Of a DNA stretch of 64,000 nt, positions 4,400-62,698 are shown piece by piece. The translations under genes and the position numbers were made by a program. Under the pieces are notes generated by a model. It was not told where the DNA came from. It ran no database searches and saw only the letters and a program-made list of their open reading frames with translations. Each line of letters starts with the position of its first letter. The stretch's first letter is position 1. This stretch comes from Bryoerythrophyllum caledonicum (taxonomy: Eukaryota; Streptophyta; Bryopsida; Pottiales; Pottiaceae), in NCBI GenBank assembly GCA_963971425.1, contig OZ020517.1, forward strand, positions 11,162,501 through 11,226,500, in the 5' to 3' direction.

Positions 4400-5274
4400 C
4401 AACAATACGTACAATACATCGAGCTCAAGGCTTAAGTCTTGATTCACAATATGTGACGAAACATGGATTGAGCTATACTGCTTTGTCAAGGATTCATTTA
4501 AAGGAACATTTGTTTTTATTATATCCATTATGTTCAAAAAAAATTCATGTAGATCCATCTGTAAGTATTGAGATGTCTCGTCTTCAATCTGAAGCAAAGT
4601 ATAAGATTTCCATTCCTCTACTAATTGGTCATAAAAAAGATAATATCATTCTTCAATCACTCAATACTCGATCATTAAATCGTCATTACAAAGATGTTTT
4701 GGCTGATCCAAATTTAATGGCATCTGATGTCCTATGCCTCAATGAAACACAAATTTCTTATTTACAAAATAGTTTAGAAATTCATAAAGCATTATTAGAA
4801 AAATTCAACATTTTATCATGTCACAATGGCCATGGAACTATTGTACTTTTTGACAAAGCTATGACTTTATCTAGAAGTCACATAAGTATAGATTTTGATT
4901 CAGAATTCATACAAATTTTACTTAATGATAACACATCAAAAGCCATAAATATCATCGCAACTTATAAGCCTCGTGCAATGTCGTTGCTTGATTACCTTGT
5001 CGTTTTAAAAAATAAAATAGAATCAATGCCTACAAATTGTCCTACTTTTATTCTTGGAGATTTAAATATTCATATGTTGGTGAAAAACCTTCTCTCGACG
5101 ACCTTGCATGATTTCATGATTACCTACAACCTTCATTTATCCTTCTCTGAAAGCACTAGTGATTATTATTCACAACTGGATCATATGTGGACAAATGCAC
5201 TATTGTCACTTTATATTTCAAATACCTTAGATGCCTATTGGACAAATCACAAGCCCATTTTATTTGATTTATAA
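4310..5274 (+). pseudogene. Helicase C-terminus fused in frame to an EEP (AP-like) endonuclease domain
   Basis: One open frame continues from the helicase end (TIRTIHRAQGLSLDSQ, then YTALSRIH) directly into an exonuclease-endonuclease-phosphatase domain without a stop; the longest ATG-started part is 4453-5274. Endonuclease motifs are SLNTRSLNRHYKDVL near 4655, the catalytic-type ETQ near 4744, ILGDLNIH near 5056, LDHMWTN near 5180, and a terminal TNHKPILFDL. Related domains in Helentrons and LINEs end in an SDH motif whose Asp and His are catalytic. Here it reads TNH, so the Asp is replaced and activity is doubtful. The single-frame join shows that the endonuclease belongs to the Helitron protein and not to a neighbouring LINE. 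Confidence 0.85.
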
Positions 5275-5830
5275 AATCCAAATTAAAAAACACATATTCA
5301 AAACATTACTATAAATCTTTCATGATTAGATAGTTTAAATTAATATCACTTAAATTAAATGGACCAAAATCACAATCATTATTGAAACTTCACTACATGT
5401 ATACTTTTTAGACCATCTTTTTACTTAAACTTCATTGAAATAGTAGAACTTATGAATTATAATAAATTTATATATTATGAAAATTTTAATTTATTCCATA
5501 CGTTTCAAGAATTTGGAAGTTTAAATTCATTAGTTGATTAAATTAAATTCTTTAATTTATTATATTGAAAATATTTAATACAAATTTCGAAGGAAAAATA
5601 CCAGGGCCCATTGTATCTATCGATATCTTGTTTGATATCTCATAGAAGGCGACCTACGAAGCGTAGACCTCTATTTAATGCCGACGTCACAAACGCAAAT
5701 CCGAATTCCTTCAACGAAACGCTCACAACGCTCACTTCCAATGTAAAAGTCGCACTTGTTCAAATAGACTTGCTGCGCGAACAGAAAGTGAAGCCGCAAA
5801 GTTGTCCGACCTCGCATCGCCAGCCTATCC
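5275..5830. other. AT-rich tail after the Helitron and start of a more GC-rich promoter zone
   Basis: 5275-5590 is AT-rich with short direct repeats and no coding signal; it may include the unplaced Helitron 3' end. From about 5600 the composition changes to GC-richer DNA that belongs to the upstream region of the next gene. Confidence 0.6.
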
Positions 5831-5995
5831 TCTCTTCTCTTTCTCCATCGCTACCTCGGACCATCTCTTCTCTTTTTCCATCGCTACCTCGGATCATCTC
5901 TTCTCTTTTTCCATCGCAACCTTGGATCCTCTCTTCTCGTTTTCCATCGCAACCTCGGATCCTCTCTTCTCGTTTTCCATCGCAACCTCGGATCA
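5831..5995 (+). repeat. Five tandem 33-bp units upstream of the LisH/CTLH gene
   Basis: Units start at 5831, 5864, 5897, 5930 and 5963. Each contains TCTCTTCTC, TTTCCATCGC and ACCTCGGAT with few substitutions. 33 is a multiple of three, so open frames appear on both strands, but these are by-products of the repeat. The array lies about 510 bp upstream of the start codon in a CT-rich promoter or 5' leader zone. Confidence 0.95.
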
Positions 5996-6508
5996 TCTTC
6001 ACGGACGGCTCAAACCCTAGGGCTAGGGTTTGCTCACGGATTGCAGTCATCCGAGGCTTGGATTGCCGTCATGCGCGGGGTTTAGGACGAGGACGGACGC
6101 GGCTCTTGCGTTAGGGTTTGGAGGTGTCACTTTCCTTTTGTCGAGGTAAGAGGCGTGATATTCTTTGCCGTGACTGGAGTTTTTGTTTTCTGACCTAGTG
6201 GCCTACCGTTAGAAATTTGGCGAGGTGGATTGGCGGAGGATTTTTTTTTTTTTTTTTTTTTTTTTTTCTGTTGCGTGTTGTTAGTTGGAGGAGCGGTAGC
6301 AGAATTGCAGCTGGATGTTTTTTTTTGTAGCGTTGAGATCAATCTTCCCCGAAGAAACTGGTGTTTTGGATGCTGTCGTGTGTTTTTACGGGATGAAATA
6401 CTCTTCAATTTTGGTCTACTGTTTTGGATGCCAAGTTTTGGAGAAGATGAAAGCGTGGAATTGAATTGTCGTCGCATCTTGTGTGTGATTTGGCGCAGGC
6501 AGGGATTG
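5996..6508 (+). promoter_or_regulatory. Promoter/5' leader of the LisH/CTLH gene with a probable leader intron
   Basis: Telobox-like AACCCTAGGGCTAGGGTTT lies near 6011 and TTAGGGTTT near 6111. A strong donor (GAG|GTAAG) at 6146 and acceptors at 6498 or 6502, just before the ATG at 6509, suggest an intron in the 5' untranslated region. A run of about 27 T lies inside it at 6241-6267. Transcription start was not determined. Confidence 0.5.
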
Positions 6509-14002: not shown

Positions 14003-14040
14003 CTACTTTTTAGTATCTAACTTTACAAAATTGAACTAAA

Positions 14041-14598
14041 CCCTTTAAGGCCAAGGAGCTTTTTCTGCTTGTGAGGATCAACTAGTATTTTGGATTATGT
14101 AGAACGGCATCTACGCATATAGTACATTTCAACATAAAAATCTACAAACTCATTTCATGGAAACCACTGTTGCTTGCCCATGCTTGCACCGATTGCGGTG
14201 ACAATGGTCTCAATAGATGCGCATCTTCTTCAACCTCTATGTCACGTTCTATTTTTTTTCCTTTGGGGTGGCCTGTAGCGCTTTCTATAAAGGTTTTTTT
14301 GTTTAGAACCGACCCATATATGGCCGATGAGCCTTTTTAGCCTATGAGAATCTATGAGTGTTCTAGATCATGGAGAACATCATTTACACCTAAGGGATAT
14401 TACATTGTGAACCACTTCATGGAAATCACTATAGCTAGTTGATGTTTGCAATGATCTTTATGGCAATGGTCCCAATAGATGCCTATCCTCTTCCACCTCT
14501 TTCTCATAGTTTAAGTCTTTCATGGAGGTGGCCTGTACCAATTGCTTCAAGATTAACGTGCTAAAATGACCCAAAATGGGTTGCTCGTCCTTAAAGGG
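14041..14598. mobile_element. piggyBac-like non-autonomous element with an internally duplicated unit
   Basis: The ends are inverted: the left starts CCCTTTAAGGCCAAGG and the right ends CGTCCTTAAAGGG. The right flank is TTAA (14599-14602); the left flank is TAAA, one change from TTAA. Inside are two related units, about 14060-14245 and 14330-14510, sharing blocks such as ATGGAAA-CACT, CAATGGTC-CAATAGATG and CTTC-ACCTCT. A relative of this unit is inverted at about 61610-61800, and a tiny element with the same ends is at 59825-59946. Confidence 0.6.
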
Positions 14599-23434: not shown

Positions 23435-26400
23435 CTATCGTCTTAGAGCTGTGATTTGTTCCAGTTCTTCCAGAAGCTCTTGAACCAGATTCTTGAAGAT
23501 CATGTCTACGAGTTCTCGTACCACTTCACACACTTCGACCAGTGTGGATTCCTTCTCAGCCTTGAAGTCTTGCTCCAGAATGAGTTGCACTGCTGCGCAG
23601 ATGCCAGTTGAAGAAGAAGAAGCAGCAGCAGCAGCAGCAGGACAGGGCAAAACTTGAAGATTATTCCAGACCTTCTGCACCAGCGCCTGTCCCTGGTACT
23701 GCTCCTGACCCTGTCTCAGGTAGAGCCCAGCGTTTCGCATGAGTAGCTCATGTCTCAGGATCTCGTCCACGAAGTCACACAAGATACGTCTCTTCGTCTC
23801 TTCCTGCTCAGTTTGAAACCTTAGTTTCAGGAAGTGTCTTCTCACAGTGGGCTCACTGTCCAGCCACTCTTCGTTTGTGAGGTCTGAGGTGACCAGGAGG
23901 TCTCGGATGAACTCTCGCTCCTCCTCTCGACTTTTCAGGACTCGCCCCTGGCCAGAGATTGGGATGCCTTCGTCGTGTGGGAGGAGTATTCTTGGTTTCC
24001 AGGATTGGAAGGAGGGGTTTCTGTCTATGGCGGCCTTGGTAACTCTGGCAAGGTGGCGGAGGGTTCGAGCTCCCCATTCATTCCATCGATGGGCGCACTC
24101 CAGTGCCTCTAATGCATCTGCAAGGTCATGTGTGAAAGGGTTAGTCGACTTCATCCATGTGCAGGGTTTAGGGTTTAATCGTTCACTGAAATCTGCTCTT
24201 CAGTCATGTAGTCAAAATATGTAGTTGAAATCTGCTCTCTAGTCATGTTTATGTTTAGGGTTTAAGGATTCAGGTAGATTTTGATGTAAAGCCGCGTCTC
24301 TTGTACTTGGCATGTACAATTATGGCTGATGAGCATTCTTGCCTTGTATTGTATGATTATCAAGTCATCTTCATGATGTAATGCAGCTGGAATTTATTGC
24401 TTCTGTCTGTAAATAGTCCTTTCAGACTCAAGACTGTGAAACCTTCATTTCATTTGTGTTTCATGTTTAGGGTCAGGGGTTTTAGGTTCCAGGTAGATTT
24501 TCAACCCAAGCTGCGTCTCCATGGCAGTCGGATATACTCGCTCGTCAATGTCGTGTCTATGCAGCTGGAATTCATGGCTTATATGACTCAAAAAGGTGGA
24601 GCTTCATCACATACCTTGATGGATGGCAGTGGCGTTCCTCGCAGTAGCAACAGGGCGCCTCTTAGCAAGTGACTCAGGTCCGACCTCATAGCCTCGTCTT
24701 GCCACTACTTCGTCTTCTTTCTGTGTCAATCTAGTCTCCTGAAAACAATTCTTTCTCAGAGCCTGCAATTCACACTCAGGCAATAGAAAAGCTTGCTCAC
24801 AGGTCCCACTAAGAAGGTGGTACATGACTTATGCAACTCTAGGATTTAGAGATCTGATTCTTAGCTGAATGTCAGAGCCATTAGATTATTCAAGGCGCTT
24901 GGTGGTGAAGTATGGAAGAGCCTGGTGGTCTTAGAACTCAACTCAGAACTAGTTTTAGTCGCCTTTGAGAAGGAAGAAGAAGAGGTCATTTTGAACCATG
25001 AATCTCCCCCCTTTTTTCCTCTTTGAACTGATCATAGAAATGTAAAGCTATTTAGGGTTGATGTTAATAATTAAAAATGAGAAAAGAGGTCAGAAGATTG
25101 GTATCATTGCCTGACTGCTTTCGTCTAAATATTGATGTTTAAAGACCTCGTCAGAAAGCAAGAATAGAATTTCACAACGATTAGTTTGTTCAATATTCTT
25201 ACCTCTGGAAGGCCTTCGTTCTCTTTTCTGAGCGCTGTTCTGCTTTCATTCCTGTTCCTGCTTCTCACGCTGACAATGTGCATTGCTTGGCGCTCTCTTT
25301 TCCTCAGTTCAAGTTTTGCATTCAGAGCCCGTTGCCTTTTGACCTCCTCAATGAGGGCGCTGCAGGTGAGTTCTCTTCTCATCATCGGCCTCCTAGTTAG
25401 AATTCCTTCAGCGTCGTACTTCATGTCTCGGACATGAAAAAGCTTGCTACTGCATTCTGTCTTGGTGGGCGGCAGATGTGATGTGGTTGTCAAAGTCTCA
25501 CAACCAACTGTTGTCGTTGTTGCTGCTTTTGTTGCTGTAGTACGCTTCCTGACCTTCCTGTAATTTGCGAAGAAATCATAGTTCTATTTGTCATTGATTG
25601 GCACCATATTTCAGTACCATTGACACTTCTGTGCAGATGCAAATTCCAAGTCCAATTCATTCACATGAAGGTTCTCGAACAGGATTATTGTATACTAATA
25701 ACAGGCTTTGTGTAGGCATGTTAGATTTATCATGTGTAGGAATCTCCATTAGTACCTTTTCTAACGGGGTAAGGCCACAAAGGGTTTAGCCACTTATTGT
25801 TGGTTCTAGAATGTTATGACGTAATAGGATATGTTAGATTGATCATATGAGTACAGGAAAATGACAACCCATCAAAAAAGGAATTAATCACTATTGAGAC
25901 TCAAGTGATTCCAACAATGTAAGAGGCTTCTTAGCAATCATGCCGCTTCTCACTCAACGAGTGTCACTTGTCACTGAACAGGAGAGTCACTTGTTCTTGT
26001 CCTCTATGACAAGGTCCTCTTGAAAGGTTTACTAATTGTGGCCTTGGTTTTAGACTCTTACAGATAACCCAATTGGCAAAAGTAGGTGTTTCACCGGAGA
26101 AGGAAAATGTGAAGACTGAGAATAGTTGGGAGTGGAAATCAATTCTTCAACTTCATTCTTCACCTCTAAAGGTGAAGAGTGCATATTCTCAATCTTCGAA
26201 GGACAGGTGCCGCGTTGCCCATTTTATGAAGATCAAGAATGGGCAACAATGGGTGTGACATCCCGAACATAAAAATGTGCCTTAACAACAACAAATATAG
26301 CCTTGGTTGTCAATAATCATGTGAGGAGCTTACCCGATTGGAGGTGATGTCTTAGGTTTGGTGAACAGGCATCCAACTTCTCTATCAGCTGATGGAGCTT

Positions 26401-32165: not shown

Positions 32166-33873
32166 TTACCCTGTTACAGCGGCGAGGTTGTCTATATATG
32201 CACCCAAGTTTATTGTGACTTGTAATGTTCCAAAGATATAGCTGTTATTACTCCTTTGCATCCATCTTAGTAGTGGTTCTAAGAAGATAATGAATAGATA
32301 TGGGCTTAAGGCATCACCTTGTATAGTTTCCTGTTGTATGGGGATGGATTGGGTTGTTCCAAAGTATTCTTCAAAGTATGAGGTAGAGGAATGGGAGTAT
32401 ATGTTTCCAACTAGTGCAACCGGGTCCGTAGGATATCCTAGGTCAGACATAATTGCGAGTAATCTAGCGTGATCAATAGAGCCAAATGCGTTTTTGAAAT
32501 CAAAGTATAAAATATATATGTCTTGGTTTGTAAATTGTGCATCTTCTAGTGTGGCTAGTATGGTTTGAAGTTGCCTAGCAGTACAGTCTAACCTTGATAA
32601 TATCACACCCTCCGTTTCACCCAAAAATGTGATATCAAGGTGTGACAATTTTGATAATATCTCGTTTGGCAATTTTAGGCAAAATGTGATATTATCAAAA
32701 AAGAAGGCAAAAAAAAATTCAGAAAAATTCAAAAAAAATAAATTAAATTACAAACTGTCATACACTTGATTTTCCAACCTGAATCAATCACCATCAGATG
32801 TTATAAATCACAAAAATCAAATAAATGAATGAGTGAAATCTCATACTCAGACTTAACAAACTAGTAAATCCATTGAAAACTAACATATGATTTATCTCAC
32901 CTCATGTCGAATGGTCATTGAGAAATAACACGTGACAAGGTGTAACTGGTTCACATTACACATGTAGTATCATCAATTCATCGCCATTCCAGCAATGAAC
33001 TTACATCCCAACGACCTGTACTATACTAAATGTGTAAAGAAACCAACCGCAAACAAACCCTTGTCCTCTCCCGAGTCTCAATGCTTTTGGAGCTCACAAC
33101 CCTCGCTCTTCCTAGAACCCTCGTCTTCACCAAAATCTATGATTTGCGCACATTTTTCATTCATGAATCACCCCCAATCGTAGATACAGAAAAATATTCC
33201 GTCGAGATATGCCATCATCCACACTTATTCATCCATCCATTTTTTATATTGTCACACTTACACTACAGATTTTGAAAAAAAAAGTGATATTATCAAGGGT
33301 CATAGTGATATTAACAAGGTAATTTTACATTAAGAAAATCTGTTTCAAGGTTTTGGGTGACAATATCAAGGTGTTATTTTAACAAGTGTGATATTATCAA
33401 GGTTAGACTATACTCATTTCCGCACGGAAGCCTTCTTGACTATTGTGTAAGATTTGGTGTTTTTCTCCATATGAAGATAATATGTATGTGAATGTGCTTG
33501 TGAAGAGTTTATAGATTGTGTTGGCTAGGGCAATTGGTCTGTGATTGGGAAGCAACAAGGAGTCACCTTTTTATATAGAAATATTGTAGAACTAGTTTTC
33601 CATAAGGCGGGAATTTGTTTTTGTTTGTAGCAGTGGGAGAACATTTAAAAATAGGAAGGGAAGTTCATGAAACCCAGGGGGCACTAGTTTTAATATGGAG
33701 TTTGGGATACAATGTGGGCTTGGGGCGTAGTTATTGCCTAGATTTTTGATGCACATGTCATATGTGGCTCGCTTAAAATAAGTATGTAGTGGGATTTGTG
33801 GTTGACTATGTTTATCTGTAGTGAAGCCGTCAAGGTCGTGCCATGGATATTGTCTTACCATGTACATGTACAT
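32166..33873 (-). pseudogene. LINE reverse transcriptase, split by an inserted element and with a mutated active site
   Basis: RT motifs read QEGFRAEMSTARQLQ across the insertion point, YILYFDFKNAFGSIDHARLL (palm motif A with its Asp), then IQGDALSPYLFIIFLEPLLR (motif B). The catalytic motif C, usually YADD, reads YIDN here, so the second catalytic aspartate is gone. RT of LINEs copies its RNA at the target site. This copy cannot do so. If the 827-bp insert and one TA copy are ignored, the two halves join in frame. Confidence 0.88.
32584..33410. mobile_element. Tc1/mariner-pogo-like non-autonomous element nested in the LINE RT
   Basis: Terminal repeats of about 25 bp (AGTCTAACCTTGATAATATC and onward) are flanked by TA on both sides (32582-32583 and 33411-33412). 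Several further GATATTATCAAGG/CCTTGATAATATC motifs sit inside both ends as subterminal repeats. The 827-bp element encodes no transposase. The CAGT-start and TA duplication point to the mariner/pogo superfamily. Confidence 0.78.
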
Positions 33874-44759: not shown

Positions 44760-47743
44760 TTTTGATGATTCTAGAATGTATTTCGGCATATGTATGGTCT
44801 TCCTTTGACATTTAGATATTGTAGCTATTCTCTTGTACCTAAAACATTATAATTCCTACACAATCTTTGTATTTCCATATTTTAATAAAAATTCATAATC
44901 CTTGTAAATTTTAAATCATATAAACTTTGAAATGCTCTAGTCTAAAAAACACATGGAAATACTGAATTGAGCGAATTAAAATCTATAAAATCTAAATGAT
45001 TAAAATCTACAAAATTCAAGAACATTGTTTTGTCAATATGAAATGAGTCTTCTTACATGCACATGTTTAATTAGGAATTTCAAAATGAAAATGTACATGC
45101 ATTTTAAGACTCTTTGTTTTGTTTAATAAACAACAGAAATTGGAATGTGAATGTAAATTACAACCCCAAAAAATACCATTACAATTGCACCTTGATCTTA
45201 CTCTCAAATGTGCTAAACAGAATCTAGTCTATGTTTTTTAATTTTTTTTAATTAAAAAAAATTATAAATAAATGAGCATGGAATTTTTGCATACAAATAA
45301 CTTAGTCACGTGCATTCATATGCATTCAAGCCAAACACATCCACAGTGAAAGAACTAAATGCAATGAACCTGAGTACACTAGAATCATTATATACTGTGG
45401 GTGGTGAATGATGTGGGGTTCAAAATTATTGTGGTTGTCTTCACGGCTGTTAATAGTGTGGCTTTGAAATCTATAATTTTTGAAACAAAAATTGAAATTA
45501 AGGCTTATTTTGGTCAATCATAGTTTTTTTCACTCTTGATATATTTTCTCAAGACTTCAAACATTTTAACCCCTAACACTACCAGCATATAGATTTTGGA
45601 TGATTGACTAACTGAAAGTTGTAGATCTCTCTTATATGGCATTCATCCAATTGCCAAGAAATATACCATAAAATCCTATGGTTGTTAGCTTTGTGCATAT
45701 GTGATATTTATAGAAAGTAAATGAGAAGTGAAATTTCTATGCTTCATTTCATGTTGAAGTGTCTCACAAAACTCTCTTGAAATTTTAATTCAAAAAGAAT
45801 CCTTTCAAAGTGCCTTCAAAATGCTCATGAAATATAGTAATTAAAAAATATAGAAAAATCACCACTATCAAAGCGTTACATTTCAATCCATCACAACGAA
45901 TTTCACCCATAGACTGTTAATATTCTTTTTTCTATTAATTTGAAAAAAAAACATCAAATTTGAATTTCTAAAAATTACAAAAAAAAATTGGTGATATCAA
46001 TCATAGATCTAACCATACATATGTAATCTAAAATTTACAATCTACAACTTTATTTCAAACATCACCATATGATTTTTCCTTCTATACAAATTTTATAATG
46101 AATCTTTACAGCTATACAAATTTGAAGAAGAATAAAGTCATTTAGGGATTAAAAGCCTTAGGATTTTTAAATTGCACTAGAGTTATTGTTACCTCAAAAG
46201 ACTTTTTCCTCACAATATTTTCAAAAAATAAGAACTACTAACCCATCTTGTAAATACTGTGGCCCACACTAGATGGTGATTTTGGTGAAGTATTACCCAT
46301 ATAAGAGTGAATTCCACTCTATTATAACAATTCTTCTGGTGCTTTTCAACACCAAAATTTCTATTGTGGCACAAAATTCAACTGTGGAGCCGATTTCATT
46401 AGACTGGGATTCTCGATGACCTTTGAAAGGACATCACAAATATCTCCCACAATTCTTTCACATAATATACTTTGGATATCCTCTTTCGGTATTCTGACTT
46501 TAACATCACCACTAGCACTACAGTGCCCTTCTCTAAGCTACAACAGCTACACATTGTACATAAGTTGGAAGAACAATTGGTAAACTTGCAAAATATATCT
46601 TCACTTTTTAGTTACTTTACCTTGTACAGCCAGAATTAATTGCTGCAGTGCCACTCACTTGCAATTTAAATGAGTCACTGTCGGCTCCTTGAACCAAGTT
46701 TTACCCACATTAGACTGTTGGTTTAAAAATATATCTTGCAGAAGGTGTTTGTATAATCAGGCTTGTAAACGTATTTGAAGCATGTTTTTCAGCATGATAG
46801 TATCGTAAACAATTATTTAAAGAATGCATGTTCAAGTAGATCTGTTTTGGAGCGGTGACTTGCAGAACAATCTTACCGACCTGCAAAGACCTCTTCAACT
46901 ATGTTTGCACAAGTTGACGATCTTCTGTGGCCCACTGTTTAAAGGTATAATTTGGATCTTCTTTCAATACAAAGGAAGGTGTAAATTGATGCTCTTTCAT
47001 GATATTGTAAACAACACCACCGTGACCTTTAGCGTTACTTTTGATAAATTGGTTCGTCAGATTGGTCATTCAGGCCCAACAGTAATTTAAATAAATTATA
47101 CCAGTGGACACAAAAGTCTACGCCGAGATGTTGTTTGTTGACATACCAGGAACTTACATCACCCATAGTTTGTATTAAATCCCCTTCGGAAGTAAATAGT
47201 TGTTTTTTGATTTCATGAAAATTGGTTTCTCCTAGTGTGGGACAGAAGTCATTTAAAATATATTACCACTGGTATTCTCTGGGATCAAAGCATCGTAGAC
47301 TAGTAAAATTTCAGGTGATGACTCCTATTCTCTCTATCTGCTAGAAATATATTCAACTGGAGAAGCTCAATAAATGCAGGAAAAGGTTGTATTTTCATAT
47401 CAATTTCACTACCTTCTATTCTTCTTCACAACAGTCTAGACTTTGGTTTGGTCCTGAACCATCCTACTATAAATTGCAACAAATTCTTATTCAGCTGCAA
47501 TTTCTGATGGAAAGATGTTGTGACACATCATACATGGCCAAAGGTGAGAATTCCTCGGAGCTTAGAATTCCAAACCAAATGACAAATGTACTAAATTCAT
47601 AGTATGTCGTTGGTTTATATAACCCTAGATTTCCAAGCCATAGTGTGCTCACACTCGCATGAAAAGCTACTCAGATAGAATGCTTCATAAATTCACAGTA
47701 CCTGTTTCTTTTCACTGTATCCCTTGATTGATTACAATATTCA
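44760..47743 (+). repeat. Left arm of a 3-kb inverted repeat
   Basis: 2,984 bp, the reverse complement of 54779-57762. Matching landmarks always satisfy left + right = 102522, from the outer end (44760/57762) through 45326, 46824 and 47602 to the inner end, so there are no net length differences across the arm. Spot checks of homopolymer runs (nine-A tracts near 45950 and 45980) agree exactly. Mismatches were seen only at 47717, 47735 and 47737, next to the inner edge. It encodes only short frames (88 aa or less) with no recognised product. Confidence 0.97.
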
Positions 47744-48390
47744 GAATCATGCATGTATGCGCGACACAATGAAGCCAGTACTTGGGGAAATCCTTCCATA
47801 TTATCAGTCCTTGCTCTGACACGGAAGAATGCCGGCCAAGAACAGTTCAAAATTGACCTGCCACGGTGATTTTCGGATCCTTCAGTTTGTCCGATTCTTC
47901 TCAAGGACGTTGATGCAGAAAGGCTCTACGATGGGAGTCTAATTGGAAATTGTAAATTTTTAAACTGTAAACTGGAAACTGGCGGGACCACTTAGTCAAG
48001 TATGAAATGATGAATGAACTTGCATGCCCACTCGGTCCAGTTGATCGTGGAAAAGACAAAAGAAGTCTGTAATATCACTAAACATGATTTGCCATGATGT
48101 TATGTATACCCAATCTATCACATCTGTCATTATCAGATGCATAGTCATGGGAGTGGGTGATGGAGAGATGCAGTCATGGGTCCCGGATAGCAAAGTGACG
48201 ACGTGCAGTGCAAAGCACATGAACTGGAGTGGGTTGTAGAAACACACAGCGATACGCAACAAGTTTACACACAACTTACACACAGTTTCTAGGGTTGATA
48301 GAATTACATCAACCAAGGTTCTAGCGAAATTCCTTCGACGGTCTGGACTGAGGAAGCTTTCGTGGTGCTGCGGTGTACACTTACCAGGGG
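47744..48390. other. Start of the inverted-repeat spacer
   Basis: A relic of the tandem unit starts at about 48321 (CTAGCGAAATTCCTTCGACG). A minus-strand frame of 137 codons (47996-48409) overlaps this and looks like a by-product. No assigned gene. Confidence 0.4.
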
Positions 48391-49006
48391 CTAGCGAAAT
48401 GCCTTCCATGGTTGAAATGGGGTGGGTGTAGGATATGACTTGGATGATGATAAGGAGTCGCGCCGCTCGGAGCTACCGCTGACTACGATAAGGTATGAGT
48501 TACATTGGTGTCATGTACTTGACATGCTTGTGCAACATTACTATGGGCTGACGTTTGTTTCTGTGGATTTTTTTGTGTGTATATTGAGTTGGATGATTGG
48601 ATCGGTGCAGGTGTACGAAGGCAAGTCCTGCTTGAATACTATCCAGATCAGTGCATTGCTGGCTCTTGACGCCAGACGCGCTCTTGACCGAGCTGCCAAA
48701 AGCGTTAAGTCCCTGGACAAGCAATGCTACGATGTGTAGGCCGTGTTCGGTGACATCCGACACTCTGGAGGTACAAACAAATCTGAATCCACTTAATCTT
48801 TCTATTGTTGCTTTCAATTGTTGCTTTCAATTTTCCACATGAATTGTAGAAAATTATGTACATATGGCACAAGTGAAGATTAGCATTTTACAAGATTGCT
48901 GAGTTACACATGCTCACAATTCTAGTCACCTCTTAAGTTTTCGTGCAATATCGATTAATCTTTGTAGCTTGGAATTTTAGTTTCAATTCATTTGTTTGTG
49001 TCTGGG
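48391..49006 (+). pseudogene. Tandem unit 1 of an unknown spliced gene
   Basis: A 616-bp unit beginning CTAGCGAAATGCCTTCC. It contains two exon-like pieces with good splice borders: one ending at 48492 (DDDKESRRSEL, then GATAAG|GTATGAG) and one at 48611-48770 (LNTIQISALLALDARRAL, RAAKSVKSLDKQCYDV, then a stop, then AVFGDIRHSGG). Compared with unit 2 it has lost bases in both exons and carries an in-frame TAG. Product not recognised. The helical, Arg/Ala-rich text suggests a real ancestral protein. Confidence 0.6.
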
Positions 49007-51003
49007 CTAGCGAAATGCCTTCCATGGTTGAAATGCGGTGGATGTAGGGTATGACTTGGATGATGATAAGGAGACGCGCCGCTCGGAGCTGAGCACTGTC
49101 GTCGCTGACTACGATAAGGTATGAGTTACATCGGTGTCATGTACTTGACATGCTTGTGCAACATTATAGGCTGACCTTTGTTTCTGTGGATTTTGTTGTG
49201 TGTATATTGAGTTGGATGATTACACTATAAGAAACCCGTGATTTTTGTGACGTTAGCTGTGATCTAGTGTGTTTTTCAAAACATGTTTTTGCGAACGGGC
49301 CGTGCCTTGGGCTTTCGGATTTTGGTGGATGTTGCACCAAACATGAAAAATTGGCGGAAAAACACAGAGATGTTAGCATAAACGTATTTGTTTTGCGGGA
49401 CGTCCTAGTGAACATAGTCATGTTTTAGACAACGTCCTCAGAAAGGTGACAATGCCACGTCGGCAGGGGGGTTTCAGATTCACCATGAGTAACTTCGAGA
49501 TTGTTACTGCAACCTCCCGTAAAACACTGCCCAACGGTTAAAACACAATAGAGATGGGCTGACCCCTACAAAAATAAAAACGTGGATGTCGTTACTGACG
49601 TCACAAAAAACGTGTTTGAGCCACGTAGGCAAGGTAGAAATTGGATTCTTTTTAAAATGTTTGTGCCACGTAGGCAAGGTTGAAATCAGCTGCCACGTAG
49701 GCAAAGAGGATGTTGGAACAGACGTCTGGATGGACGTCTACTGTGACATTTTAATGTTTATGCTAACACGAGGCTAATACCATGACAAATCCAATAATCC
49801 CATATGGATTGTCACCACTTGTGCATCCTATTGTATATATATGTAAGGCCTTCTCTCCTATCTCATCACACTTGAATCAAGAGTGATTCACTTTCATCCA
49901 TCTATTTGGATGAATTTGAATTACCCTTGAAACTTAAAGTAATACGGTACTTTTTGATGACATGGCGTTTCTTTTTGGTGACATGGCACTTGCTTTTGCT
50001 GACTTGGTGCTTGCTTTTGGTGACCTCCATCTCAACGAACGTCACAGAAAACGTCATAACGAACGTCACAGAAAACATACCGTGTTAGAAATGACGTCCC
50101 AATTTACACTGTCCACAATTAATTATTGCATTAAACTATGCTGATTGGACATGCCACGTCATATTTTAAAAGTGACACGTCATATTTTAAAGGTGCCATG
50201 TCATAAAATGGCGGGTCCACGTATGCAAGCCTAGTCACAATCGTATGCCACATCATGCGCCACATCATGGGCCACATTACCAAGGGCCCGGATGAAAAAA
50301 TTGGGGATGTGGCACTGCCTCTCCATGTGGCGATGATGTGGACGCGACGTGGCAGCCACATGGCAGATTTTTAACACCTTCAACCCCCAAGTTTTTGTGA
50401 CGTTTTAAAAAACATGGGCCTGTTTTTTGAGATTTTGGCATGTTTTTCGCACGTCAATTATAACGGATTTTTTTGGACGTCAACGTTGACGTGCCGGATG
50501 CTGCACAAAACGTAATTGCACGTTAGTTGCCCTGTCACAAAAAACATGGGTTTCTTATAGTGTTAGATCGGTGCAGGTGTACGAAGGCCTGAAAGCAGGT
50601 GCAAGTCCCTGGTTGAATACCATCCAGATCAGTGCACTACGCCTGGCTCTTGACGCCAGACGCGCTCTTGACTGAGCTGCCGAAAGCGTCAAGTCCCTGG
50701 ACGAGCAATGCTGCGATGTGCTGGCCGTGTTCGGTGACATCCGACACTCTGGAGGTACAAATAAATCTAAGCGCCCCCTTCGTTCCGAATCCACTCAATC
50801 TTTCTTGCTTTCAATTGTTGCTTTCAATTTTCCACATGAATTGTAGAAAATTATGTACATATGGCACATGTGAAAATTTAGCATTTTACAAGATTGCTGA
50901 ATTACACATGTTGACAATTCTAGTCACGTCTTAGTTTTCGTGCAATATCGATTAATCTTTGTAGCTTGGAATTTTAGTTTCAATTCATTTGTTTGTGTCT
51001 GGG
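49007..51003 (+). pseudogene. Tandem unit 2 of the same unknown gene, split by a CACTA element
   Basis: Same order as unit 1. The first exon piece ends at 49118 (RRSELSTVVADYDK), and the second at 50577-50754 reads VYEGLKAGASPWLNTIQISA, LALDARRALD, stop, AAESVKSLDEQCCDVLAVFG. It keeps the bases lost in unit 1 but has its own TGA. Without the 1,340-bp insert and its 3-bp duplication the unit is about 654 bp. A third, partial unit starts at 51004 (CTAACGAAATGCCTTCC). Each copy is broken in a different place, so a working ancestor predates the duplication. Confidence 0.65.
49223..50562. mobile_element. Non-autonomous CACTA (En/Spm-type) element, 1,340 bp
   Basis: Termini are CACTATAAGAAACCCGTG on the left and, read in reverse, CACTATAAGAAACCCATG on the right; the inverted repeat runs about 29 bp with two mismatches. 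TTA is duplicated at 49220-49222 and 50563-50565, the 3-bp duplication of this superfamily. The interior holds subterminal motifs typical of CACTA elements: GCCACGTAGGCAA copies, AACGTCACAGAAAACGT copies and CACGTCATATTTTAAA copies. No transposase. Tandem unit 1 preserves the equivalent empty site near 48600. Confidence 0.93.
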
Positions 51004-51542
51004 CTAACGAAATGCCTTCCACAGAAGCTTTCGATGCGGTGTATTTCATGACATATGTCCTAGGTTTATAGCGGCTTAGACAGAGAAAGGAGATTTCGTT
51101 AGAATTGTTGTGTACTGTAATCTAAATCTAAATTTCAATGTGTTGCAGATTGGAACATGGTGACTGTGTGGTGATAATAAAGATTAAGCAGAACTGAAAT
51201 GCCCAGGGTTTGTTAAAGTTATTCAACTTCTCATCAGGTAATTTTTTTTTCAAATTTCAATCTTGTGAAATGATGATACATGTATGTTTAGTTATCTGAA
51301 AGATCATGTATGTTATAATTATCAAAAGTATCTTATATGGAATATCATCATGTATGAACTATTGATAAATGATGAGTTACTTTTTCTTTAATATGATATA
51401 AATATAACATATATGTTGAATTACTTTTACTTTGATTTCTTCAAAGTAAAAGAAACTCTTATGGTATAAATTACAAATTTTTTAATTAATTTAATATAAC
51501 TAACTATGTCAATCTAAAACAATTTGTGTGTATCACAGAACC

Positions 51543-52487
51543 ATGTCAACTTGGAGTAGACAAACAGGGTGATCAAAAACAGAAAGATCAGGGAAGGACC
51601 TGATGAGAGGTAGTTCTTCTTCTGCACCTTCACAAGACCTTGTGAGAGGTAGTTCTTCTTCTGCACCTTCATAGGTACCTTCAAAGAAATTTGGAAAAAA
51701 AACAGCAGTTGTATCTTTGGTGCACAGGGGTACTCCTCCCAAATTGGATGCAGCTGCAGGACATGTGTATCGCGTTTCTCCTCTTGCTAAGAAAACAAGT
51801 GAGCTCAACCTTCACCAGATTGGTATCATTAGGTCTTTTGAAGAGTCTTCAAAAATACCTTTGTTCTTAAACAACAAAAATGTTGTTTCATATGTGAAAG
51901 AGTTTGTAACAAATTATGAAAAAGAGAGAATGGAACTTCGAGCAGAAATTGAGAGGCTAACAGAAGGAAAAGCTTCTAAGGAAGAATTTTATGCGAGGTT
52001 TGATACTTTGGAGGAAGTCATTGGATTAAAAAATCTAGAGAAGGGCATAACTATCAAACGTATGGTCACTGAGTGGAAAAAATCTAAAAATGGAAAAATG
52101 GTGCTCAAAGCAATTGGCAATGTTGTCAAGAGCCAATATGATAAAGATGGCATTCGAGAGCATTGAAAGAACTTCAACAACATACTATCAGAAATCAAAG
52201 ATGTGATTCGAATGGAGGACTGTGAGAAAGCAACACCAATATTGGCTGCTATCAAGACAGTTATTTCCAAAATGGATGAAGATGATAGCTTGAAAATGAA
52301 AGATGTTAAAAATGCATCTGATGGTTTGATTCACCTTATGAGTGAATATCTGGGAACCAACAAAAAGGTTCATCGTACCTTGCAGAAAGCAGAATTGGAT
52401 AAAATAGCTACACATGGCTATGATATGGGGAACGGAGAAAAATGGTTGACCTTTTTTGTCAACATTTTGAAGTGTGAGAAAACTTGA
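51543..52487 (+). pseudogene. Unknown coiled-coil-like protein gene with in-frame stops
   Basis: One frame from ATG 51543 to 52487 is interrupted only by TGA at 51570, TAG at 51672 and TGA at 52164. Reading past them gives about 315 residues. First comes a Ser-rich start with two 39-bp repeats (RGSSSSAPSQ), then LDAAAGHVYRVSPLAKKTSE. A charged helical region (YEKERMELRAEIERLTEGKA) and LVRSQYDKDG-like helical blocks follow, ending NGEKWLTFFVNILKCEKT. The long open stretches (150 and 94 codons) suggest recent loss of function. Family not recognised. It may be a later exon block of the tandem gene or a separate gene. Confidence 0.6.
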
Positions 52488-53074
52488 ACAATTTCAGTTT
52501 TCATATTTTGAAGATTACAGGAAGTTAGGAAAAGAAGGGAAAGCTTTTAGGGTCCTTCTGATGCTCATTGGTGTTGTCTCGTTTACTCCAGTTTGTTGTG
52601 GACCAGGCTTGCTTAATTGTCTTTCTAGCTTGATATCGGTCCTTCCATGCCTGTATATACAATGGTCCAAGACATTTGGTACCCATTTTTGCCAATGAAC
52701 TTGTCTAGCTCATAATTGATGAGCAAATTCAACAATCCTTGTGCTTGAGAATTATGTGGTTGCTGAACAGGGTCAGTTACCAGCTTCTGACCTTGATCAG
52801 CAAGTAGACTGCTAGTACTACAAGGATTTCTTTTCTCAGTAGTTTGATGATAGATCAGATATGCTGAATACTCTTTTCATTTTGGAAATTATGCTCATTC
52901 TCGAAAACTTATAATTTGTACCCTAAGTTGGGCATTTGCGTTGAGCGTCTTGCCGGTATCATCATGTTCTCATCTTGTGATCTCTAATGAGATTTTTCGG
53001 CCAGTTTGCAGATTTTTTCGAGTGAGGTTAGTTAGCAAGAGAACTTGATGGATTGAAATTTCACCTGGCTCCAA
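52488..53074. other. Spacer DNA without a supported gene
   Basis: A 74-codon frame at 52474-52698 has no recognisable features. The text looks like decayed 3' flank. Confidence 0.4.
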
Positions 53075-55255
53075 GAGCCTTGTGTGTAACTAGCTGTGTC
53101 ACTAGAGGGTGGATTTTCCAACTTCCATGACTAATTAATCAGACAATTTTGCTATATTATTTAATTCTCTATTAATAGATATTAGTGACTTGTGCTGAAG
53201 ACAATGCTAAATCAAATTGGGTCTTGTGACTTAGGATAGTGTCAGTTTAGCTTTTCATATTCGGATAAGAGAGATTTGAGCTGAGTGACAACTGATACAT
53301 CAACCTCATTTTATGGTATCCTCAGTTTTCTGTGGTGTTTCGACAATGTTTGATGATTGTGCAGGGACAAAAACTGGAAGAGAATTCAAATCATCAATAA
53401 TAGGCCGACGGCATTATGTGAGCTTTTTTAAACAAAACATCTCAATGTTGTGAAAGACGTTACCATGAATTTTGGAGGCAATGAGAGTGACTTGAAAATG
53501 ACATTAAGTTTTTCATGACAGTCTGATGAGCACGATATGAAATGGAGATCTGGACATGCAAACTAATCACCTACTGTGAATTTAGTTGATGTGTCTATCG
53601 GCATATAAGTGCCCCAAATTGCGTAATTCTCAGCTATGGCCACATGTATATATCACTTTAGATTGCATCATTACATCATAGATTGCCGCTGAATAACAAT
53701 TTGTTAAATATGTTCTTGCAGTTTTTGGTAGAATAGTTTAGGCAGCGAACGAGACTGTTGGAAAGAAAGAATTAGAAGCAGTGTGGTTGATCTGAATATA
53801 CCACCTTTTCTTACATTTATTGAGCAAGTTCTCCAGTTGATATGTCCAGAAGATTGGAGACAGTGTGACTCATGACCTGAAATTTTAGTAGTTTAAGATG
53901 CTTTGCTTCCAGAAATTGTTGGAATACAGAGACCAGTTGTGTCACAAGAGAGTGGATTGAACTTTCCAACTTCCATGACTGACAGTTTTGCAGACTAAAA
54001 GACGTTCAGTGTGAAGAAACTTGTACTCGTGGCTGAAGAAACTGTGCAATTAAGTTGAGATTGGTGGCGTATGCTTGTAACATTTCAACTTTTCATGTTC
54101 AGGTTAGGAGCTGAGCGACAACTTGTGTACTGACCGCATCATTTGTATGTTATCCTTCTGTTTCTGGAGTGTTTCAATAGTGTGTGATCATTGTGCAGGG
54201 AAAAAAACTGGAAAGGGACCAAAATTAGCAATAATAGCCGGCAACATCACATGATCAGCTCCTTCCAGTAAAACATCGCTATGTTGTGAAAGAGTTTGCT
54301 ATGAATATTGTTGGGGACAATGACAATGACTTAGGAACGACACGAAAAAACGTTTCAGATATTGTATGAGGAATTGGTGCTCTGTTTGCTTGTTGTTGAA
54401 ACTTGAAATGCAAATAATTTACATTCCTTTCCAACGTACGCGTACAAAAGGACCTCCAATCAAGAGGGATACGATCTACAGTTCTTTTTGGTGATGACAC
54501 AACTGTTTGTCTATTTGTTTTCTCCTCACAGCTGTGTAGCTTTCAAATGGGAGGTAAAGCATTTCAAACACAATCATAAATCTCACACTTGAAAGGGCTC
54601 GAAGCGTCTGTCAGTGCGGAGCTTACTTACCATTATTTATAACTCACTGGATATCTCGACTCCGTGTTGCTGCACACCCTGCTCACTGGCGAGTTTGTAT
54701 ACACATTGATCACTGTGTAGGATAATATTATTGGAAAACATTGAATTCCTTCCAATCGCATCCCTCAAGAAAGAATGTTGAATACTATAATCAATCAAGG
54801 GATATAGTGAAAAGAAACAGGTACTGTGAATTTATGAAGCATTCTATCTGAGTAGCTTTTCATGCGAGTGTGAGCACACTATGGCTTGGAAATCTAGGGT
54901 TATATAAACCAACGACATACTATGAATTTAGTACATTTGTCATTTGGTTTGGAATTCTAAGCTCCGAGGAATTCTCACCTTTGGCCATGTATGATGTGTC
55001 ACAACATCTTTCCATCAGAAATTGCAGCTGAATAAGAATTTGTTGCAATTTATAGTAGGATGGTTCAGGACCAAACCAAAGTCTAGACTGTTGTGAAGAA
55101 GAATAGAAGGTAGTGAAATTGATATGAAAATACAACCTTTTCCTGCATTTATTGAGCTTCTCCAGTTGAATATATTTCTAGCAGATAGAGAGAATAGGAG
55201 TCATCACCTGAAATTTTACTAGTCTACGATGCTTTGATCCCAGAGAATACCAGTG
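53075..55255 (+). repeat. Diverged tandem duplication running into the right arm
   Basis: 53075-53530 resembles 53920-54350 at an offset of about 850 bp (shared CCAACTTCCATGACT, AGCTGAG-GACAACT, TGTGCAGGGA-AAAACTGGAA, ATGTTGTGAAAGA). 53585-53940 resembles 54925-55255 at an offset of about 1,340 bp (TTGC-GCTGAATAA-AATTTGTT, CATTTATTGAGC, CCTGAAATTTTA). The second copy therefore carries some 490 bp extra, and its end lies inside the right inverted-repeat arm. Many substitutions separate the copies, so this duplication is much older than the inverted repeat. Confidence 0.75.
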
Positions 55256-57762
55256 GTAATATATTTTAAATGACTTCTGTCCCACACTAGGAGAAACCAA
55301 TTTTCATGAAATCAAAAAACAACTATTTACTTCCGAAGGGGATTTAATACAAACTATGGGTGATGTAAGTTCCTGGTATGTCAACAAACAACATCTCGGC
55401 GTAGACTTTTGTGTCCACTGGTATAATTTATTTAAATTACTGTTGGGCCTGAATGACCAATCTGACGAACCAATTTATCAAAAGTAACGCTAAAGGTCAC
55501 GGTGGTGTTGTTTACAATATCATGAAAGAGCATCAATTTACACCTTCCTTTGTATTGAAAGAAGATCCAAATTATACCTTTAAACAGTGGGCCACAGAAG
55601 ATCGTCAACTTGTGCAAACATAGTTGAAGAGGTCTTTGCAGGTCGGTAAGATTGTTCTGCAAGTCACCGCTCCAAAACAGATCTACTTGAACATGCATTC
55701 TTTAAATAATTGTTTACGATACTATCATGCTGAAAAACATGCTTCAAATACGTTTACAAGCCTGATTATACAAACACCTTCTGCAAGATATATTTTTAAA
55801 CCAACAGTCTAATGTGGGTAAAACTTGGTTCAAGGAGCCGACAGTGACTCATTTAAATTGCAAGTGAGTGGCACTGCAGCAATTAATTCTGGCTGTACAA
55901 GGTAAAGTAACTAAAAAGTGAAGATATATTTTGCAAGTTTACCAATTGTTCTTCCAACTTATGTACAATGTGTAGCTGTTGTAGCTTAGAGAAGGGCACT
56001 GTAGTGCTAGTGGTGATGTTAAAGTCAGAATACCGAAAGAGGATATCCAAAGTATATTATGTGAAAGAATTGTGGGAGATATTTGTGATGTCCTTTCAAA
56101 GGTCATCGAGAATCCCAGTCTAATGAAATCGGCTCCACAGTTGAATTTTGTGCCACAATAGAAATTTTGGTGTTGAAAAGCACCAGAAGAATTGTTATAA
56201 TAGAGTGGAATTCACTCTTATATGGGTAATACTTCACCAAAATCACCATCTAGTGTGGGCCACAGTATTTACAAGATGGGTTAGTAGTTCTTATTTTTTG
56301 AAAATATTGTGAGGAAAAAGTCTTTTGAGGTAACAATAACTCTAGTGCAATTTAAAAATCCTAAGGCTTTTAATCCCTAAATGACTTTATTCTTCTTCAA
56401 ATTTGTATAGCTGTAAAGATTCATTATAAAATTTGTATAGAAGGAAAAATCATATGGTGATGTTTGAAATAAAGTTGTAGATTGTAAATTTTAGATTACA
56501 TATGTATGGTTAGATCTATGATTGATATCACCAATTTTTTTTTGTAATTTTTAGAAATTCAAATTTGATGTTTTTTTTTCAAATTAATAGAAAAAAGAAT
56601 ATTAACAGTCTATGGGTGAAATTCGTTGTGATGGATTGAAATGTAACGCTTTGATAGTGGTGATTTTTCTATATTTTTTAATTACTATATTTCATGAGCA
56701 TTTTGAAGGCACTTTGAAAGGATTCTTTTTGAATTAAAATTTCAAGAGAGTTTTGTGAGACACTTCAACATGAAATGAAGCATAGAAATTTCACTTCTCA
56801 TTTACTTTCTATAAATATCACATATGCACAAAGCTAACAACCATAGGATTTTATGGTATATTTCTTGGCAATTGGATGAATGCCATATAAGAGAGATCTA
56901 CAACTTTCAGTTAGTCAATCATCCAAAATCTATATGCTGGTAGTGTTAGGGGTTAAAATGTTTGAAGTCTTGAGAAAATATATCAAGAGTGAAAAAAACT
57001 ATGATTGACCAAAATAAGCCTTAATTTCAATTTTTGTTTCAAAAATTATAGATTTCAAAGCCACACTATTAACAGCCGTGAAGACAACCACAATAATTTT
57101 GAACCCCACATCATTCACCACCCACAGTATATAATGATTCTAGTGTACTCAGGTTCATTGCATTTAGTTCTTTCACTGTGGATGTGTTTGGCTTGAATGC
57201 ATATGAATGCACGTGACTAAGTTATTTGTATGCAAAAATTCCATGCTCATTTATTTATAATTTTTTTTAATTAAAAAAAATTAAAAAACATAGACTAGAT
57301 TCTGTTTAGCACATTTGAGAGTAAGATCAAGGTGCAATTGTAATGGTATTTTTTGGGGTTGTAATTTACATTCACATTCCAATTTCTGTTGTTTATTAAA
57401 CAAAACAAAGAGTCTTAAAATGCATGTACATTTTCATTTTGAAATTCCTAATTAAACATGTGCATGTAAGAAGACTCATTTCATATTGACAAAACAATGT
57501 TCTTGAATTTTGTAGATTTTAATCATTTAGATTTTATAGATTTTAATTCGCTCAATTCAGTATTTCCATGTGTTTTTTAGACTAGAGCATTTCAAAGTTT
57601 ATATGATTTAAAATTTACAAGGATTATGAATTTTTATTAAAATATGGAAATACAAAGATTGTGTAGGAATTATAATGTTTTAGGTACAAGAGAATAGCTA
57701 CAATATCTAAATGTCAAAGGAAGACCATACATATGCCGAAATACATTCTAGAATCATCAAAA
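54779..57762 (-). repeat. Right arm of the 3-kb inverted repeat
   Basis: Reverse complement of 44760-47743. Its inner part is related to the neighbouring tandem repeat at 53585-53940, whereas the left arm has no such neighbour. This suggests that the right arm is the original location and the left arm the inverted copy. Flanks outside the arms (CTGTAATAG on the left, ACATAAAGA on the right) do not form a target-site duplication. Confidence 0.97.
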
Positions 57763-58479
57763 ACATAAAGACTTTATGATGTATAATGTCTTGATTCTCC
57801 TCGATAAGTTTTTTATATGGATGCTTTGTGTTAATGTGTTGTTTGGGTGGATGATGTAGGGCAGCTAATTTGTTTAGAAGAGTGTTGGTCCATAGTGTTA
57901 CAGATAATATATGTGGTGGTGGGTGCATATTATTTTGTTGGATGTATTGGGCGATATGCGGAAATGCGACATTTTGTGTATTGTGTAGTGCGTGTGCTAT
58001 TTAGAAGGGGTGCAAATGTTTTAGAGATATGTTGGTATTTGGGGTGAAGTATTATAGTGCTTGGGATAAAGTACATTTTGGCTCTTTTTTTATGTGTTGA
58101 GGGGTGTGTTTTTACTAAGTTTGGCATGGAACCAGGATTTGTTTTGATGTCTCCACGAAGTCGTAATAGAAGTTTGTAATGAATAAGTTTAGTTGAGTAT
58201 AGGGTTTTGTTTTGTTTTGTTTATTATTTTTGTATTTTATTTGGTATTTTTGTGTTTTAGTTGTAGTGTTTGGAAGGGTGTGTATTGTATCTTGTAACCA
58301 ATTGATGTTGTTTTTATTATTTTTGTCGTTTGTGGATCTAGGAATGCTATGTTTATTCTGCCATTTTTTTTAATTTTTTTTTGAGTGGTTTTGTAATAGT
58401 TGTGGTTATGATATTTGTTTGGTTTGGGATTCTTGTGGTAATATTTGTCCCTAGTTTAGTGTTTGTATATGTATTTGGA
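57763..58479 (-). other. T/G-rich segment resembling retroelement coding DNA
   Basis: The strand bias matches the LINE at 27.8-34.2 kb. Minus-strand open pieces (57707-57928 and 57930-58127) read like the Thr/His/Lys-rich LINE text (LAALHHPPKQHINTKHPYKK). No RT or endonuclease motif is visible, so the assignment is tentative. Confidence 0.35.
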
Positions 58480-58855
58480 TTGTTGCCGTTATTATTGTTG
58501 TTATTATTGTTGTTATTATTGTTGTTATTGATGTTGTTATTGTTGATGTTGATATTGATGTTGATATTTTTGTTGTTGTTGATGTTGATGTTGGTATTGG
58601 TGTTGCTATTGATGATGTTGATGGTGTTGATGTTATTCATGTTGTTGGTTTTGATGTTGGTGGTCAAGTCGATGTTGGTGTAGGTGGTCGTGTGGATGTT
58701 GGTGTAGGTGGTCGTGTGGATGTTGGTGTAGGTGTTGGTGTTGATGTTGGTGTTGGTGTTGGTGTTGGTGTTGTTGTTGGTGTTGGTGGTGGTATTGTTG
58801 TTGTTGTTGGTGTTGGTGGTGGTATTGTTGTTGTTGTTGTTGTTGTTTTTTTAAA
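58480..58855 (+). repeat. GTT/GAT/GGT trinucleotide-derived microsatellite
   Basis: About 370 bp of mixed GTTATT, GATGTT and GGTGTT units. The minus strand reads as long Asn/Ile or Thr/Asn runs, but this reflects the repeat and not a gene. Confidence 0.95.
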
Positions 58856-59251
58856 AAATTGTTTTGTAGTATATAAATATACTATATTTTAAAAAGTTTT
58901 TTGGATTTTTCTAATATATATTTTAGTATATATAAATAACCTATACTAGTATATCGATCCATTGTCCCCAACGGATAATGTAAGTTTAGAGAAGTTAACT
59001 ACAATTGTAAAGATAAAAGTAAAAGTAAAAGTAATAAAAGTAAATGCTACAAGTTGTAGCCTCCTACGACGGGTATCACCTTGGTATTCCTCGGTTTCCA
59101 TCACCGGGTATGTCCCTTCCTCTTTTATCTAGCTATTGCCACATGTGATGGAAGGCCAATATTCGGGTAGGCCGGGTATCTCCACATGGCGCAACGGATT
59201 GCATGGGCACTAATTGGGTATTGGCCCCTCCCCTTTTATTATATGTAGTAG

Positions 59252-60467: not shown

Positions 60468-61609
60468 ATCTGGTATGGCTGCGTAACTAATGGGGAGATG
60501 AGGTGTAAGGTTCTCCTACTCCCTTAGCTTGGGTTCACATGTCCTGATATTCTTCTCAATAGAAAATACACTCTATTTTCTATTTAATGTTAATTAAACA
60601 TTTGCTACACTATTCGGCATATGTCACAAAAAATTGTTGAAAACTTGTCATACGCCAGTGAAAATTGTTTGTAACTTTGGAACCGTATGTCGGATTTCAG
60701 CAGAAGTTATGTCAATAGAAAGCTACCGAAAAGTTGTCCATGTAAAATGATGAAATTAAATAAAAACCAAGCCAATATTTGAGATTGAAGGACTGGATTG
60801 AAACTCAATTTGTTCCCCGACGACAATCGTCCTTTCCTGGTTAAGAGTCTATTGTGTGGATAGAGCTCAACCCGGACGGAGCTTGATTACATCCAATAAT
60901 GTATTTGGCAATATTCATTGAGCTTGACTCACAGTTTGGCTATTACTTCCACCAACTGCCCATGGACAGGTCCATTTCACCAGACAAGTTGATAACCTGG
61001 GAGACACTTCTTGAGCTGCTTGGCGTCCATAATCTACTGCCCATTATGTGTCATAATGGAGTGTCCTCGCAATGTGTAGTGTGTGTAATGTGCGTACAGA
61101 GCACGTACAATTACAACGCAACTTGGCTCGTGCTTCTCTTGAAAACGGAAACTTCTCGCTCCTCACTTCACAAAAACTTAGTGAGAATACTGTCAAAGTG
61201 TCAAATTTGGAGTATAGGAATCAACCCTTTTTCCAAATCAATTAAGTAGTGCTATAATTTACTCACTTCCCCTTAATATCGTTCATTGCCGCATATTCCA
61301 CTTATAAATATATTTTTTCAATCTTGGCACTTTTCACTTAATTATTCCAATTCATTTGGCATGCCTTTTTTGAAGTAATTAAAGTTGAACCCAACCCTTA
61401 CCTACAGTAAATGCAACTTCAAGTCAAACTTATGGTTCTCATTGGATAATCCCTAACTTTCATGCATTAGGTAATTGAAACAAGTCTTTTCAATTCCGGT
61501 TAATGCATCCTTAACAATGGATCAACAAAGAATCCACATTAATTTTGAAAGAGTTTGTGGTCTCAACCCTTTTAGAACCTTGTAGCAAGCGCTATTGGCC
61601 ACCTCGAAG
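60396..61609. other. Intergenic DNA, no convincing gene
   Basis: (AT)n run at about 60430-60452. A 116-codon plus frame at 60899-61249 has no recognisable domain and may be chance. The rest is AT-rich. Confidence 0.5.
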
Positions 61610-61800
61610 GAAAAATACACCATGACTTAGAGGTGGAGGATGATGGGCATCTATTGAGACCATTGTCACAACAATCTGTTCAAGCATACACTGATTTTTG
61701 AGGAATTGTGGATTTTTGTGCTGAAATGTATCCACTGGGTAGATGGCATTTTGCATGATCTAGAATGCAACTAGATTCTCTGAGGCAAGAAAAGCTCATT
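61610..61800 (-). repeat. Inverted relative of the unit inside the element at 14041
   Basis: Shares GAGGTGGA-GATG-GCATCTATTG, GAGACCATTGTCAC and CATTTTGCATGATCTAGAA-type blocks with the two units at 14060-14245 and 14330-14510, but in the opposite orientation. Confidence 0.65.
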
Positions 61801-62698
61801 TGCCTGAAAGGATTATACTCAAGTTAGAGTCAATTCTTAGCCGTCTCTAAAAATGAAGAAGAAGTTGTGTTGTACCATGAATCTTAGCTTTCTTTCTCCT
61901 CTCCAAGTTGAGTATGAAAATTCAGGGCTATTTAGGACTAATTTTAGTCATTCAAAGAGGTCAAACCTCCTAGCATTTTTGCCTCACTTTACAAATAACT
62001 CTAATTTAAATACAAACTCCTCACATCCTTTGATGGACAGGAAACCTTGGACTATGATTTTCTTTCAAAGGGGGTGATTAGAGAGACTTGAGGTGGAATG
62101 AGTTGAAATTACGTACTTGAATCTGATTATTATGATGACAAGGACCAAAGTAGTTGCCAAACAAGAAAAAGGATCCAATCTTCCAAAGCACTTGAGATTT
62201 GAAGCCAAGTTCATACCAAGTTTATTATTTCATCATGGATTTTGTACACTAGTGTGACTTACATTGTATTCATTTTTTCCTCTGCTTCTAAAATTTGGTG
62301 TATAAGGAGTTAACATTATATAAACCATAATGGTAATACATCTAGACCTTGTATTATGCAAAAACTTGATACAAACTAAAGTTAAAGTGTATTTAAGTGT
62401 ATTGATCCTTTTCATTCAAAAGAAAATATCCATTATTCTCATGTTAAAAATTATTATAATCTTCCAACCCTTACAATTATAGTTTATATGAACATGTTTT
62501 TTGTAGTCAAAATGAAGATCTCATGGTGAAAATAAAATAAAATATTTTTGGTTTTTTTTCCTGAAGTGATTATGATGAGAAATAGTCAAGAATTTTGAAG
62601 GGTTAATCCATACAGTATCACTAATATAAAATAGTTGTACTTACATGAATTAGTGATTGATTACTTATTATATGTAGTCATCCCAAATTGGGCCCTTT
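61801..62698. other. AT-rich intergenic DNA
   Basis: No gene seen. Frames of 60-74 codons lack features. Confidence 0.55.

Follow-up and report, generated by a model that had tools for sequence, protein, structure and literature searches.

An inverted repeat with nearly identical arms

A 13,003-bp inverted structure lies in a 64,000-nucleotide stretch of the genome of Bryoerythrophyllum caledonicum (Bryopsida, Pottiaceae; GenBank assembly GCA_963971425.1, contig OZ020517.1, positions 11,162,501 to 11,226,500 of the forward strand), which we call the window and to which all positions refer. The structure consists of two arms of 2,984 nt that stand 7,035 nt apart, a spacer that carries a tandem duplication and a CACTA-type element, and a diverged array that runs from the spacer into the right arm (Table 1). 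A preliminary description of this DNA had reported a 13-kb inverted structure with arms of this length, and an inverted-repeat search of positions 40000-62000 (minimum 40 nt, seed 15) returned exactly that, as a single inverted pair. The pair is far beyond chance; across the whole window, exact inverted 25-mers (words lacking any G or C were omitted) numbered 5,866 on the axis of the arms, counted from both sides, and 0 off it. The window contains no N, and no third copy of the arm was found within it.

Table 1. Positions in the window of the inverted arms and of the features between them
Feature	Position	Strand	Basis or remarks
Left arm; putative inverted copy of the right arm	44760..47743	-	2,981/2,984 identity to reverse complement of 54779-57762
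Inner-edge block, left arm	47717..47743	.	Arm comparison; 24/27 identical to 54779-54805, carries all 3 differences
Spacer, 7,035 bp	47744..54778	.	In-window matches: its own internal repeats and the 69% match of unit B to the arms only
Tandem duplication, 616-bp spacing (48388.. and 49004..)	48388..51021	.	Repeat searches; second copy split by the CACTA-type element
CACTA-type element, 1,340 bp	49223..50562	.	In spacer; inverted ends CACTATAAGAAACCC, 3-bp TTA target-site duplication
Diverged tandem unit A-B (A 53089-53503, B 53507-53913)	53089..53913	+	68-69% identity to A', B'
Second unit (A' 53932-54342, ~0.5 kb other sequence, B' 54854-55244)	53932..55244	+	Contains the right inner boundary 54779
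Inner-edge block, right arm	54779..54805	.	Arm comparison
Right arm; putative original	54779..57762	+	Array unit B' continues A-B-A' of 53089-54342

Base-by-base comparison bore out the rule proposed earlier, by which left and right positions sum to 102522, with 0 indels between the arms, and it gave the three changes previously noticed at the inner edge as exactly three mismatches in 2,984 positions (47717/54805, 47735/54787 and 47737/54785). All three are transitions and all are confined to the last 27 bp at the inner edge, the outer 2,957 bp being free of differences up to and including the outer edge. If changes were scattered uniformly, all three would fall within those 27 of the 2,984 sites with P = 6.6e-7, a value that refers to a stretch picked after the data were seen. 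Immediately past both the inner and the outer edges the identity of the arms collapses: the 400 bp inward of the edges aligned with a score of 10 (shuffled mean 10.8, maximum 16) and the 400 bp outward with a score of 11 (shuffled mean 11.9, maximum 17), the controls being 200 letter-shuffled sequences in each case.

Arms this similar might belong to an older palindrome kept identical by arm-to-arm gene conversion, of which the inner 27 bp would be the unconverted edge. Conversion is credited with the high arm identity of palindromes on the willow W and the human Y in the accounts given by PMC7023750 and PMC3723533, the former reporting arm identity >99% averaged over four arms and conversion shown for a 3-kb region, the latter arms >99.9% identical; the present arms, at 2,981/2,984, likewise lie above the 99% identity by which inverted arms are recognized as a sex-chromosome palindrome. 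The placing of all three differences at one edge, with 0 elsewhere, also fits this history. It leaves unexplained an outer edge without differences, no diverged homology extends past either edge, and 0/2,957 differences can be accounted for without conversion if the copy is recent. We consider this explanation unlikely.

The same pattern bears on the assembly itself, in which one arm could be false, or multi-mapped reads could have erased real differences between the arms except near unique sequence. Polishing over a repeat might indeed leave arms that are almost identical and differ only in the 27 bp next to unique sequence, yet differences at the outer edge should then have survived as well, and none are present. 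Moreover, a chimera of a hairpin read would hardly have four unrelated edges and a spacer of 7 kb, and the outer junctions showed no homology by which an assembler could be misled. An artefact of either kind appears quite unlikely, and the arms are probably assembled correctly.

The diverged array points to the right arm as the original

Within the window, the spacer stands unduplicated between the two inverted copies. The array A-B-A'-B' crosses the inner boundary of the right arm at 54779, with B' lying within that arm. The 1,000 bp inward of the left arm contained no match to A' and a single 30-bp match to A (E 0.06). Because the array spans the inner boundary of the right arm and was not found inward of the left arm, the sequence is most simply read as a right arm still in its ancestral position and a left arm that would be its inverted copy, unless the spacer was flipped. 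Such a flip could have come about by recombination between the arms, swapping the roles of original and copy, and we take the spacer to be probably unflipped. The CACTA-type element in the spacer is a separate, ordinary insertion and is probably too short for autonomy.

In base composition, the left arm (44760-47743) has a CpG observed/expected ratio of 0.33, as compared to 0.66 in the spacer, 0.62 in the left flank and 0.45 in the right flank, and its low CpG looks as if the arm had been methylated for long.

No sign of mobility or gene function in the duplicated piece

Nothing in the analysis marked the duplicated piece as a mobile element or a functional gene. The right arm holds only short reading frames, apparently decayed; it contributed six of the 10 frames scanned, whose best Pfam E-value was 0.023, with every match under its curated cut-off. 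The arm frame 55260-55484 had no match among solved structures up to E 10, and none of 32 candidates proved to be a homologue of a joined arm frame (E up to 10). Neither an Rfam match at gathering score nor a tRNA was found in the window.

A gag-like stretch in the spacer stayed below threshold (E 0.028) in six-frame Pfam scans of 47801-57783, which cover nearly all of the spacer and the whole right arm. Scanned alone, the spacer frame 51675-52163 matched gag with E 0.0018 and 18.9 bits, short of the 24.1-bit cut-off; it has one relative, a reading frame of 125 aa with 60% identity over 55%. Four matches of this frame to solved structures (E 0.28-0.47) were taken as chance, as was a Pfam match of 47801-57783 to adenovirus hexon (E 0.12).

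The six-frame scans also contained no transposase, with matches considered up to E 0.5, a result that bears on the notion that the whole structure is a large non-autonomous DNA transposon with terminal inverted repeats of 2,984 bp. Near-identical inverted ends around a spacer are what such an element would show, and some plant elements, chiefly Mutator-like ones, carry long terminal inverted repeats according to PMC3310237; non-autonomous elements may also lack a transposase. Mutator-like repeats are, by the same account, usually 100-500 bp long and flanked by 9-11 bp duplications, and no target-site duplication, of 9-11 bp or otherwise, was seen at the outer ends of the structure. Among exact direct matches of at least 6 bases within 30 bp of each outer end, none abuts both ends; those seen were a word inside both arms that is itself a palindrome, together with its sub-words, and also ATGTAT and CAAAAA, the last of which lies 29 bp beyond the left end and within the right arm. 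No word of 1-5 bases next to both ends is common to the outer flanks either, and duplications with mismatches were judged only by eye. In addition, the right arm belongs to a local diverged array. A transposon of this kind is very unlikely. We see only a very slight chance that the arms form a palindrome in which gene conversion is active, within a non-recombining region of a plant that has sex chromosomes, or that they are the 3-kb inverted ends of a large, as yet undescribed mobile element whose insertion leaves no target-site duplication.

Probable origin in a recent inverted segmental duplication

Of the causes named in the preliminary description, the one with the strongest support, from the 0/2,957 outer differences and the polarity of the array, is a very recent inverted duplication. 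We propose that the structure is probably a recent inverted segmental duplication made by fold-back or template-switch repair. A break or a stalled fork near 47.7 kb would have left a broken end, which may have paired, in inverted orientation, with sequence at about 54.79 kb, by folding back or by switching template. From there, 2,957-2,984 bp would have been copied outward as far as 57762, and a final join at 44759 would have connected the copied end with the left flank, the outcome being an inverted copy 7 kb away from its source.

The geometry of the locus matches such repair in its inverted copy, its kilobase spacer, the homology at the spacer boundary and the non-homologous outer join, and the breakpoints are abrupt and free of target-site duplication, as is expected of fold-back or template-switch events. 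In the 21 sequenced human fold-back junctions described in PMC3907307, the spacer measured 766-70,466 bp with a median of 3,428, a span that includes the 7,035 bp seen here; 13 of the 21 had inverted microhomology of 2-8 bp and three had ~300 bp of homology. PMC6902434 reports short, imperfect homology for 19 of 57 template-switch join-points, and in the model of microhomology-mediated break-induced replication, as set out in PMC2621351, a first, inverted switch can be followed by another that restores a viable chromosome.

The absence of differences in 2,957 bp places a 95% upper bound of ~0.1% on the divergence of the arms. At the rate given for Populus tremula in PMC7023750 (2.5e-9 changes per site and year), the duplication would be at most ~200,000 years old, a scale rather than a date, as the Populus tremula rate may not be that of the host. 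If the arms undergo conversion, the bound dates the last conversion and not the duplication.

The inner-edge block is where a repair end would have annealed, and its 24/27 inverted homology, which may or may not predate the duplication, sits at the spacer boundary. It may represent prior inverted homology of which each side has kept its own version. It is also possible that the differences mark an error-prone start of copying. When 4 kb on the left were compared to 2 kb on the right in the presumed empty neighbourhood, the block was the best inverted match, with a score of 22 (21 from the block and 1 from the artificial join). A 29-base motif, with up to 3 mismatches allowed, occurred within the window only at the two arm edges.

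Several points weigh against an origin by repair, or at least against its annealing at this block. A pre-existing match arising here by chance would be unusual, since 0 of 60 dinucleotide shuffles reached the block's score of 21 (mean 14.6, maximum 18), though a repair event would choose the best available match, which softens the argument. The block, at 24/27, exceeds the microhomeologies of 7-14 bp described in PMC6902434, and it may instead be the unconverted edge of an older palindrome. Finally, the human fold-back cases presented in PMC3907307 come with terminal deletions, translocations or rings, and not as small interstitial copies. On balance, we still regard a recent inverted duplication by repair as probable, and the block as its possible annealing site.

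Other features of the window

Outside the inverted structure, Helitron-like remnants were found at 3362-5274 (+), in which a frame for a PIF1 helicase (E 2e-17) overlaps the endonuclease/exonuclease/phosphatase frame that comes after it (E 2.6e-7). We take these remnants to be of the Helentron type. Close relatives of the helicase have 65-77% identity and are mostly JGI records (87 proteins in the search). Further features are a 33-bp tandem repeat of 5.2 copies at 5827-5998, within the open frame 5569-6114, an exon-like frame with a DUF4378 domain at 23438-24199 (-; E 1.1e-10) and a reverse transcriptase frame at 32169-32747 (-; PF00078, E 1.9e-11). The DUF4378 domain, which is not known outside plants, and the CACTA-type element of the spacer mark this DNA as plant-like. 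Positions 58001-59000 are G/T-rich, with GTT-type repeats and a strong strand asymmetry (GC skew 0.69, AT skew -0.45). A diverged inverted match of 72% identity links 14039-14295 to 61576-61814, and more dispersed matches join 13-15 kb to 59-62 kb, which are likely copies of one repeat family.

Significance and comparison with known systems

We propose no function for the duplication, and its likely consequence is instability, by inversion of the spacer or conversion between the arms; a cruciform is improbable with a 7-kb spacer. Sex linkage and the formation of double-stranded RNA, both raised in the preliminary description, find no support here. If real and young, the duplication offers one clean case that is interstitial and whose polarity can be read, with all differences at the inner edge, where fold-back models place annealing, and it predicts that the spacer can be inverted through recombination of the arms. 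Alone, it leaves the general picture unchanged.

The structure shares long inverted ends with the Mutator-like elements described in PMC3310237, and differs from them in arms several times the typical 100-500 bp, in the absence of a 9-11 bp duplication and in that no transposase was found. Like W.P1 and W.P2 of the willow W, as presented in PMC7023750, it has inverted arms >99% identical that flank a spacer, yet the willow arms are reported to be 14-73 kb long and gene-bearing, with outgroup evidence of conversion, whereas the arms here are 3 kb long and carry only short, apparently decayed reading frames. Compared to the human fold-back inverted duplications of PMC3907307, it is interstitial and 3 kb in size, rather than large and adjacent to terminal deletions, translocations or rings, with an inner block of 27 bp that has 3 mismatches and may or may not predate the duplication; with those duplications, as that source describes them, it shares a kilobase unduplicated spacer and inverted homology at the spacer boundary.

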